Source of the DNA: Reyranella sp.
GTDB lineage: Bacteria; Pseudomonadota; Alphaproteobacteria; Reyranellales; Reyranellaceae
Assembly: GCA_016780605.1 (NCBI GenBank)
Contig: JADHLS010000075.1
Location: 1-11,756 of the forward strand
Direction of reading: 5' to 3'
Length of the DNA stretch: 11,756 nucleotides
Position numbers and translations under genes: made by a program. A model generated the notes under the pieces. It searched no databases. It was not told where the DNA came from and was given only the letters and a program-made list of their open reading frames with translations. Shown piece by piece: positions 8,314 to 10,833 of this stretch (position 1 is its first letter; each line of letters opens with the position of its first letter).

Positions 8314-9945
8314 CTAGTGATGTGCCGTCGGGGAGATGTGCGGCAGTTCCTCGAAGGTGTGGAACGGCGGCGGCGAGGCCACCGTCCATTCCAGCGTCGT
8401 GGCGCCGTCGCCCCAGTAGTTGGCGCCGACCCGCTTGCCGGCCAGCATTCCGCCGAACACGACGAAGATCAGCCAGAAGATGGTCGAGCCGAACGAGATG
8501 AAGGCGCCGATCGAGGAGATGTAGTTCCAGTGCGCCATCGCGTCGGGATAGTCGACGTAGTGGCGCGGCATGCCGGCGAGGCCGCTGAAATGCATCGGGA
8601 AGAAGGTCAGGTTGACGCCGATGAAGGTCGTCCAGAAGTGGATCTGGGCCGCCCACTCCGGATACTGCCGGCCGGTCATCTTGCCGAACCAGTAGTAGAA
8701 GCCGGCGAACATGCCGAACACCGCGCCGAGCGACAGAACGTAATGGAAGTGCGCGATCACGTAGTAGGAGTTGTGCAGCGAGTAGTCGACGCCGGCATTG
8801 GCCAGCACGACGCCGGTCACCCCGCCCACCGTGAACAGGAAGATGAAGCCGATCGCCCACAGCATCGGCACCTCGAGGCGGATCGAGCCGCCCCACATGG
8901 TGGCGATCCACGAGAAGATCTTCACGCCCGTCGGCACCGCGATCACCATCGTCGCGGCGACGAAGTAGGCGCGCGTGTCGACGTCCATGCCGACGGTGTA
9001 CATGTGATGCGCCCACACGACGAAGCCGACGACGCCGATCGCCACCATCGCGTAGGCCATGCCCAGGTAGCCGAAGATCGGCTTCTTGGAGAAGGTCGAG
9101 ATGATGTGGCTGACGATGCCGAAGGCCGGCAGGATCATGATGTACACCTCGGGATGGCCGAAGAACCAGAAGAGGTGCAGGAACAGGGTCGGATCGCCGC
9201 CGCCCTCGGGCTTGAAGAACGAGGTCCCGAAGTTGCGGTCGGTCAGCAGCATGGTGATGGCGCCGGCCAGCACCGGCAGCGCCAGCAGCAGCAGGAAGGC
9301 CGTCACCAGGATCGACCAGGCGAACAGCGGCATGCGGTGCAGGGTCATGCCCGGCGCGCGCATGTTGAAGATCGTGGTGATGAAGTTGATGGCGCCCAGG
9401 ATCGACGAGGCACCGGCGATGTGCAGCGAGAAGATCGCGAGATCCATGCCCGCGCCCTGGCTCGACGACAGCGGCACGTAGATCGTCCAGCCGGTGCCGA
9501 CGCCGCCGCCGACGATCGCCGACAGCAGCAGCAGGATGAAGGCCGGCGGCAGCAGCCAGAAGCTGATGTTGTTCATGCGCGGGAAGGCCATGTCGGGCGC
9601 GCCGATCATCAGCGGCACGAACCAGTTGCCGAACCCGCCGATCAGCGCCGGCATGACGACGAAGAACACCATGATCAGGCCGTGCGCCGTCACCACGGTG
9701 TTCCATAGATGGCCGTTGGGCGTGCCGTCGGCGCCGTTGAAGTACTGCACGCCCGGCTGCAGCAGCTCGAGCCGCATCACCACCGAGAAGGTGGCGCCGA
9801 TCAGCGCCGCGAAGATCGCGAACACCAGGTACATCGTGCCGATGTCCTTGTGGTTGGTGCTGAACAGCCAACGCTTGATGCCCGTCGGCGTGTGATGATC
9901 GTCGTGGGCGTGATGGTCGTCGTGGGTGGCGCCGTACGCGGCCAT
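8314..9945 (-). CDS. ctaD: Cytochrome c oxidase subunit I (aa3 type)
   Basis: This is the catalytic subunit that reduces O2 to water and pumps protons, a 12-helix membrane protein of 543 residues. Heme a ligands are H88 and H401, and the heme a3 ligand is H399. CuB ligands are H264, H313 and H314, with the cross-linking Y268 in GHPEVY. The D channel is intact (D118 in [12 protein letters not shown]266) and so is the K channel (T339, K342), so it is an A1-type pump. The position of the Mg-site Asp (HDTYY in most homologues) is HNSYY here (N392), and the usual MPRRY is MPRHY (H462). The N-terminus has a His/Asp repeat, [11 protein letters not shown]. The ATG at 9945 has a strong AGGAG 7 nt upstream, 24 bp after ctaC. 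A hairpin follows the stop. Confidence 0.98.
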
Positions 9946-9969
9946 TTTAATTCTCCTGCGCCGGTGCGC

Positions 9970-10833
9970 TTAGCGGTTGACGGGCGGGGTGGCCGAAGCG
10001 AAGTCGGTCGCGGGGGCGAGGCCCGCCGCCTTCTTCTTCTGGTCCACCCATTTGTCGAACTCGGCCTTGGAAACGACCCGCACCGCGATCGGCATGTAGC
10101 TGTGATTGTCGCCGCAGATCTGCGAGCACTGGCCGAAGTAGTAGCCTTCCTTGGCGACGTTGATCCAACCTTCGTTCAGTCGGCCGGGGATCACCGTCTT
10201 CTTGATACCGAAGCCGGGAACGGTCCAGCCGTGCATCGAGTTGCCGACCGCCGTGCCGATGACGCGGACCGTGGTGCCCACCGGGACCACCATCTCCTCG
10301 TCGACCGCGAGCAGGCGCGGCATCTGCGGCTTCTGCTTGAGGCGGTCGGCCTCGGGCAGGATGCGGCTTTCGACCGTGAAGTCCCCCAGGTCGGGATAGT
10401 TGTAGGTCCAGTACCACTGGTTGCCGGTCACCTTGACGGTGAAGGCGGGATCGACGGCCTTGTCGCTGTAGTAGAGCAGCCGGAACGACGGGATGGCGAT
10501 GATCACCAGGATCAGGATGGGCACCACCGTCCAGGCAATCTCGAGGAAGGTGTTGTGCGTGGTCGTCGTGGCGGCCGAGTTGCGCGAAGCATGGAAGCGC
10601 CACACCGCATAGACCAGCAGGACCAGCACGAACAGGCAGATCAGCGAGATGATGACCAGCAGCAGGTTGTTCAGCGATTCGACCCGCTCCATCACCGGCG
10701 TGAAGGCCGGCGGGAAATTCGTCTGCCAGTCGTGCGGCACGCCAACCACCGGCTGCGCAAGGGCATTGCCCGCGAAGCCAAGCACCGCCATCGCCAGTGC
10801 TCCAAGGATGCCCAAAACGCGCTTGCCGCTCAT
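9970..10833 (-). CDS. ctaC: Cytochrome c oxidase subunit II (CuA subunit)
   Basis: This subunit receives electrons from cytochrome c through the binuclear CuA centre. It has 287 residues: a signal peptide of about 26 residues ending ALA, two membrane helices (about 55-78 and 97-120), then a periplasmic cupredoxin domain. CuA ligands H201, C236, C240, H244 and M247 are all present, as is the electron-entry tryptophan W140 in NQWYW and the K-channel glutamate E98. There is no C-terminal heme c domain. Three usually acidic positions differ: Q238 replaces the bridging Glu (CSQIC instead of CSEIC/CSELC), N198 replaces the Asp before the CuA His, and N145 replaces the Glu after QWYWxY. The ATG at 10833 has AGGGA 7 nt upstream. 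It is the first gene of the oxidase operon, after a 149-bp gap. Confidence 0.97.
   Translation of the reverse strand: MSGKRVLGILGALAMAVLGFAGNALAQPVVGVPHDWQTNFPPAFTPVMERVESLNNLLLVIISLICLFVLVLLVYAVWRFHASRNSAATTTTHNTFLEIAWTVVPILILVIIAIPSFRLLYYSDKAVDPAFTVKVTGNQWYWTYNYPDLGDFTVESRILPEADRLKQKPQMPRLLAVDEEMVVPVGTTVRVIGTAVGNSMHGWTVPGFGIKKTVIPGRLNEGWINVAKEGYYFGQCSQICGDNHSYMPIAVRVVSKAEFDKWVDQKKKAAGLAPATDFASATPPVNR

Follow-up and report, generated by a model that had tools for sequence, protein, structure and literature searches.

The role of the Mg/Mn ion bound at the interface of subunits I and II of cytochrome c oxidase is disputed. Engineered carboxylate changes at the Mn site of the Rhodobacter and Paracoccus oxidases have reportedly disturbed Mn binding. 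According to one school, as represented in PMC12901375 and PMC10598403, the protons pumped in each cycle are stored in the Mg-containing water cluster, and Glu198 (bovine numbering) changes as the low-potential sites change their redox state. A residue table in PMC12901375 equates bovine D369 with D412 of R. sphaeroides, D404 of P. denitrificans and N377 of Thermus thermophilus ba3; the corresponding residues, in the same order, are E254, E218 and Q151 for bovine E198, D229, D193 and E126 for D173, R482, R474 and R450 for R439, and Q276, Q268 and R225 for Q232. In the ba3 enzyme, as described there, Asp and Glu of the Mg site are replaced by Asn and Gln, and the cluster is without Mg.

An A-family oxidase with altered residues at the Mg/Mn site

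An alphaproteobacterial oxidase operon lies on the minus strand of the stretch of DNA analysed here (the window, 11,756 nt, from a Reyranella sp.), in the order ctaC, ctaD, ctaB, ctaG, the subunit III gene, a short PRK05978-like gene and a SURF1-like gene, followed by a gene for a 499-aa protein that has no NCBIfam match and by thrC. In a family profile scan, CtaD, CtaC, CtaB, CtaG and ThrC scored above the curated cut-offs (696.1 bits for CtaD against TIGR02891, cut-off 670.75; 170.5 bits for CtaC against TIGR02866, cut-off 147.7), and the subunit III, PRK05978 and SURF1 matches scored below theirs. Positions 10983-11660 of the window encode a 225-aa protein with weak likeness to TadA/TrbB/VirB11 ATPases, all matches being below the curated cut-offs. 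The source genome is a 4.3-Mb assembly with a completeness of 60.7%; it also contains a second PF00115 gene, at a locus (L002) whose open reading frames we take to be cbb3 subunits, and a 116-aa stand-alone COX2-like domain with a CxxxC...H..M motif (L004, 1387-1737; G000:C388). The two genes and the altered residues are as follows.

8314..9945, minus strand: ctaD, cytochrome c oxidase subunit I, 543 aa, A-family aa3 type (TIGR02891)
9970..10833, minus strand: ctaC, cytochrome c oxidase subunit II with CuA, 287 aa (TIGR02866)
8770..8772, minus strand: CtaD N392, codon AAC, at the site of bovine D369, a Mg/Mn ligand (alignment and PMC12901375 table)
10120..10122, minus strand: CtaC Q238, codon CAG, at the site of bovine E198, a CuA ligand through its carbonyl and a Mg ligand (alignment and PMC12901375 table)
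10195..10197, minus strand: CtaC T213, codon ACG, at the site of bovine D173 and Paracoccus D193 (alignment and PMC12901375 table)
9178..9180, minus strand: CtaD L256, codon CTG, at the site of bovine Q232 in the Mg water cluster (PMC12901375 table)
8560..8562, minus strand: CtaD H462, codon CAC, at the site of bovine R439 (PMC12901375 table)

In the translations, the motifs HNSYY and MPRHY of CtaD start at residues 391 and 459, and CSQIC of CtaC starts at residue 236. When aligned with the R. sphaeroides chains, N392 falls on the Asp of HDTYY, H462 on the second Arg of MPRRY, and Q238 on the Glu of CSELC. A previous sequence-only reading had called N392, Q238 and H462 within positions 8314-10833, and translations, codons and alignment bear this out; it overlooked a third lost acid, at CtaC T213 (bovine D173), as well as CtaD L256 (bovine Q232). 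The canonical Asp and Glu metal ligands of the subunit I/II interface are absent from the window, where N392 and Q238 take their places, with T213 nearby. We also observed that CtaD V157 (window 9475-9477) corresponds to bovine P130, which PMC12901375 assigns to the Mg water cluster's proline lid; among the 28 genomes of the genus, six have Val at this position and the other 22 have Pro.

Conservation within the genus and integrity of the enzyme

A search for relatives covered 61 genomes, 58 of which had a match; 37 of the 61 belong to Reyranella, the window's own genome included. Both ctaC and ctaD were readable in 28 genus genomes (L005-L032), a count that leaves aside nine other genus genomes (fragments or no locus) and a second copy in genome G011. 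N392, H462, Q238 and T213 are all present in 28 of 28; within the genus, N392, H462 and T213 show synonymous codon variation, and Q238 is CAG throughout. An assembly error is ruled out by the recurrence of the same residues in all of these genomes. G011 contains two close CtaD copies (G011:C17 and G011:C3), which are 89% and 86% identical to that of the window.

The ligand and channel residues checked are unchanged in the window and in all 161 representatives used for the trees below: the CuA ligands C236, C240, H201, H244 and M247, residues H88, H264, H313, H314, H399 and H401 plus Y268, the D-channel residues D118, N107, N125 and E266 (the Glu of GHPEV), and the K-channel residues T339 and K342 are all kept. 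In five comparisons with the window, dN was well below dS, with values of 0.02-0.07 versus 0.17-0.42 for CtaD and 0.07-0.17 versus 0.30-0.68 for CtaC. The invariant ligand and channel residues and the low dN rule out a decaying enzyme, as had been argued earlier from intact redox ligands and proton-channel residues; on the evidence of its sequence, the window enzyme is an intact oxidase under purifying selection.

Association of CtaD Asn with loss of the CtaC Glu

For a class-wide sample, a search of 289 alphaproteobacterial genomes at E 1e-150 gave matches in 222; 130 loci were read from among the strongest matches, weaker ones being under-sampled, and both genes were readable in 129. Residues at CtaD 392 and CtaC 238 are D/E in 97 of these, N/Q in 28, and D/Q, D/M, D/K and G/E in one each, with no case of N/E. 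N-type CtaD (Asn at 392) adjoins Q-type CtaC in 28 of 28 loci and other CtaD adjoin non-Glu CtaC in 3 of 101 (Fisher p 3e-25, kinship ignored). With 28 of 129 sampled alphaproteobacterial pairs being N/Q, the pair is not rare. In the same sample, CtaC 213 beside D-type CtaD (n=100) is D in 97 and S, M and N in one each; beside N-type CtaD (n=28) it is Y in 21, T in 3, H in 2, D in 1 and N in 1. N-type pairs fall into 14 families and the rest into 62, one family (f16) holding both.

A directed scan of named genomes for HNxYYxxAHFHY yielded at least 119 stretches, the counts of which are not frequencies. Titles among the matches listed include Acetobacteraceae, Reyranella, SAR116, Stella and Elioraea, together with some Hyphomicrobiales, Sphingomonadales and Burkholderiales; a trait limited to Reyranella is ruled out by these genomes, the class sample and the trees. 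CtaC was readable in 79 of the 119 listed stretches and unreadable in 40; some named genomes duplicate class or genus loci (e.g., L043 and L012), and near-identical rows were merged before trees were built. Among the matches listed, CtaC 238 beside the 79 N-type CtaD is Q in 71, R in 3, V in 2, and N, M and E in one each. Because R, V, M and N are found there, the Glu place takes residues that are unable to serve as a carboxylate ligand. The Arg cases have the CuA loop CSRLC beside N-type CtaD with MPRH and come from Rhizobiales bacterium TNE-4 (L038), an uncultured Rhizobiales (L056) and Labrys sp. KNU-23 (L132); the Val cases are from Hyphomicrobium (L069 and L141). The only N-type CtaD with a Glu-bearing CtaC among the 79 readable matches listed is titled Caulobacter sp. 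(L084), a metagenome-assembled contig which also has MPRH.

Additional loci widened the picture. A draw across the phylum included 199 genomes, 86 with a match, from which 40 loci were fetched (34 outside the class, 6 inside). All 34 outside loci are D/E, as are the four readable ones inside; no N/Q pair was found outside the class among these 34 randomly drawn loci, and the Burkholderiales cases stem from the directed scan. Of the 26 class loci kept by the same search (L280-L305), 25 were readable: D/E 14, D/Q 5, E/E 3, D/N 2 and N/Q 1. These counts indicate that loss of Glu with Asp kept, seen at 10 sampled loci in total, is commoner than the class sample suggests. Among alphaproteobacterial loci retaining Asp, the CuA loop is CSQLC or CSNIC (Gln or Asn at the Glu place) in L292, L299, L301 and L302, and in L294 and L295. 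At yet other loci (L282, L283, L285, L287, L293, L297 and several of L306-L339) Gln replaces the Mg-site His (QDTYY or QETYY), the CuA-loop Glu being kept. As a side check, unpaired protein searches gave N 29, D 88, A 1 and motif not found 2 among 120 CtaD listed, and Q in all 120 CtaC listed.

Asn at CtaD 392 accompanies a lost Glu far more than the reverse, so that the link is strong and one-way, yet not absolute. The earlier proposal that the two acids changed to their amides in a coordinated manner therefore holds in part: the changes occur together far beyond chance and repeatedly, but the dependence runs in one direction, given the 10 Glu-only losses and the single N/E pair.

Independent origins and other tracking positions

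Trees were built under LG+G4, with no mixture model, from 161 representatives out of 292 usable pairs. On the quick tree, Asn at 392 changes 13 times, non-Glu at 238 16 times, non-Asp at 213 12 times and His at 462 five times; on a careful tree of 65 rows, Asn changes 14 times. On the quick tree, a group with SH-aLRT 89 unites 35 N/Q rows, among them the window, L156, Acetobacteraceae, SAR116 and Stella. This group is absent from the careful tree, in which L162 (N/Q) pairs with L232 (D/M) with full support, a pairing that may reflect a reversal or a further origin of N/Q. AU tests did not reject the 35-row group as a clade (p 0.44), and rejected a single clade of all N rows (p 5e-67), of the alphaproteobacterial N rows (p 3e-6), and of L034 joined to the large N/Q group (p 0.03).

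It is very unlikely that the N/Q operon arose once and then spread by horizontal transfer. Adjacent ctaC and ctaD would travel together, and a divergent N/Q copy is present in Mesorhizobium muleiense (L127), which would fit such spread; however, the AU rejections of both sets of N rows speak against it, the N/Q enzymes of Burkholderiales cluster with non-alphaproteobacterial D/E enzymes, and transfer as the sole explanation is already rejected under LG+G4.

Independent pairs of Asn against non-Glu on well-supported branches mostly gave 6 pairs in the same direction, 0 opposite and 2 ties on the quick tree (median p 0.03), and 7, 0 and 3 on the careful tree (median p 0.016); an earlier FastTree of 229 rows offered only 4 pairs (3 same, 0 opposite, 1 tie) and was not significant. 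On the careful tree, L229 (D/Q) is sister to L034 (N/Q) within a D/E group, which suggests that Glu may have been lost before Asp became Asn.

We also ranked every column by its power to tell N-type rows from D-type ones, within and outside the large group and with kinship ignored. The CtaC columns that best track CtaD 392 are 238, then 213, followed by 211, 204 and 237; the leading CtaD columns after 392 itself are 318 and then 256 (third of the CtaD columns). By the PMC12901375 table, CtaC 238, 213 and 237 and CtaD 256 line the Mg-containing water cluster, and CtaD 318 comes just after a residue listed there. CtaC 237 is Asn in 33 of 35 large-group rows, as is N150 of ba3 in that table, and the window keeps Ser.

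These results bear on neutral drift, under which the metal would be dispensable, its ligands would have decayed without co-adaptation, and the association would reflect shared descent of a few clades. Single-base changes are enough for the substitutions, several lineages lost Glu alone, and most N/Q rows come from the large clade. Against this, independent pairs stand at 6:0:2 and 7:0:3 on the two trees, Asn is invariant in all 28 genus genomes, and the changes are concentrated on residues of one cluster; we regard drift as unlikely.

The His at CtaD 462, which had been noted as a further element of the altered site, is only loosely linked to the N/Q pair and was not borne out as part of it. 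In the class sample, four of the 28 N-type pairs have it and none of the 100 D-type pairs does, 24 of the 28 N/Q enzymes having Arg instead, and a D/Q locus with His at 462 exists (L281). On the quick tree, 2-3 of 8 independent pairs agreed, and some pairings included one opposite pair. At least one of the two carboxylates is missing from each of the 10 representatives that carry His at 462, although these rows are few. H462 may tune the heme propionate region.

A possible metal-free water cluster

Because of the altered residues, their fixation in the genus, their repeated one-way co-occurrence and the intact catalytic residues, we consider the window enzyme to be, probably, a functional A-family aa3 oxidase whose I/II Mg/Mn site has been dismantled in step (Asp to Asn, Glu to Gln, and a third acid to Thr). 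Most likely, the site has been lost, and the water cluster carries its protons without the metal. In the proposed mechanism, the N/Q pocket would bind no divalent metal, and two to three carboxylates would leave together with one 2+ ion, so that local charge would stay nearly balanced. As in ba3, the CuA loop may be connected to the heme propionates by Asn, Gln and ordered water; CuA would still be served by the main-chain carbonyl of residue 238, and the metal-free cluster, again as in ba3, would still take up and release pumped protons. The consequences could include an absent metal, a changed proton exit and a changed coupling between CuA and heme a. The separate Glu-only losses and the N/E pair show that the two changes are separable, which counts against loss in step.

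In a rather unlikely alternative, Mg or some other cation would continue to occupy the site at lower affinity, coordinated by H391, amide oxygens, water and a heme a3 propionate, and the substitutions would tune that affinity. H391 is kept in all N-type representatives, and with the propionates could hold a cation weakly; amide oxygens are capable of binding Mg. However, neither first-shell carboxylate remains, the nearby acid at 213 has been lost as well, the Glu place is occupied by Arg, Val or Met in some relatives, and ba3, with the same Asn and Gln, has no Mg according to PMC12901375. Beyond the window, there is perhaps an even chance that the A-family Mg/Mn site has been lost many times, Glu first and Asp to Asn afterwards, yielding natural metal-free aa3 oxidases that recreate the ba3 solution, with Arg replacing the charge of the metal in some Hyphomicrobiales with CSRLC; in L038, L056 and L132 this Arg may fill the metal pocket.

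Natural loss of the ligands may already be the test of the purpose of the metal. Enzymes that naturally lack the ligands would allow one to ask directly whether pumping stoichiometry is the same without the metal and whether CuA-to-heme a transfer is changed; candidates among the named genomes are Roseomonas, Elioraea, Stella and Hyphomicrobium facile. Furthermore, the HD and CxExC motifs are unsafe as a diagnostic of cytochrome c oxidase.

Comparison with known oxidases

The window enzyme shares its fold family and operon type with the A-family aa3 oxidases of R. sphaeroides (1m56) and P. denitrificans (1ar1), together with the residues that ligate CuA, heme and CuB and those of the D- and K-channels. 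By the PMC12901375 table, the Mg/Mn-site residues of those enzymes are Asp, Glu and Asp, and Arg stands at the place of 462, whereas the window has N392, Q238, T213 and H462; Asp and Glu are likewise present in the solved chains whose alignments were compared (three of subunit I, four of subunit II). Engineered Mn-site mutants carry single changes in an enzyme adapted to the metal, in contrast to the window with its natural, apparently co-adapted set. In the B-family ba3 of Thermus thermophilus, N377 and Q151 match N392 and Q238, but the acid E126 is kept where the window has T213, which counts against the proposed reading, and R450 where it has H462 (PMC12901375 table). The ba3 chains are only distant in sequence (E 1.4e-8 for 1ehk chain A, the ba3 chains being at about 1e-8 and weaker), and the best solved matches of CtaD are A-family, with E down to 5e-239, so that its closest sequences do not place it in the B family. 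The ba3-type Asn and Gln thus sit on a complete A-family scaffold, and the enzyme would work like ba3, as far as the latter is described in PMC12901375, without being a member of that family. Searches of an open library, with few subscription journals, found no report of the N/Q pair in A-family oxidases. The ligand pair itself is already known from ba3, and what appears to be new here is its presence in an A-family oxidase.
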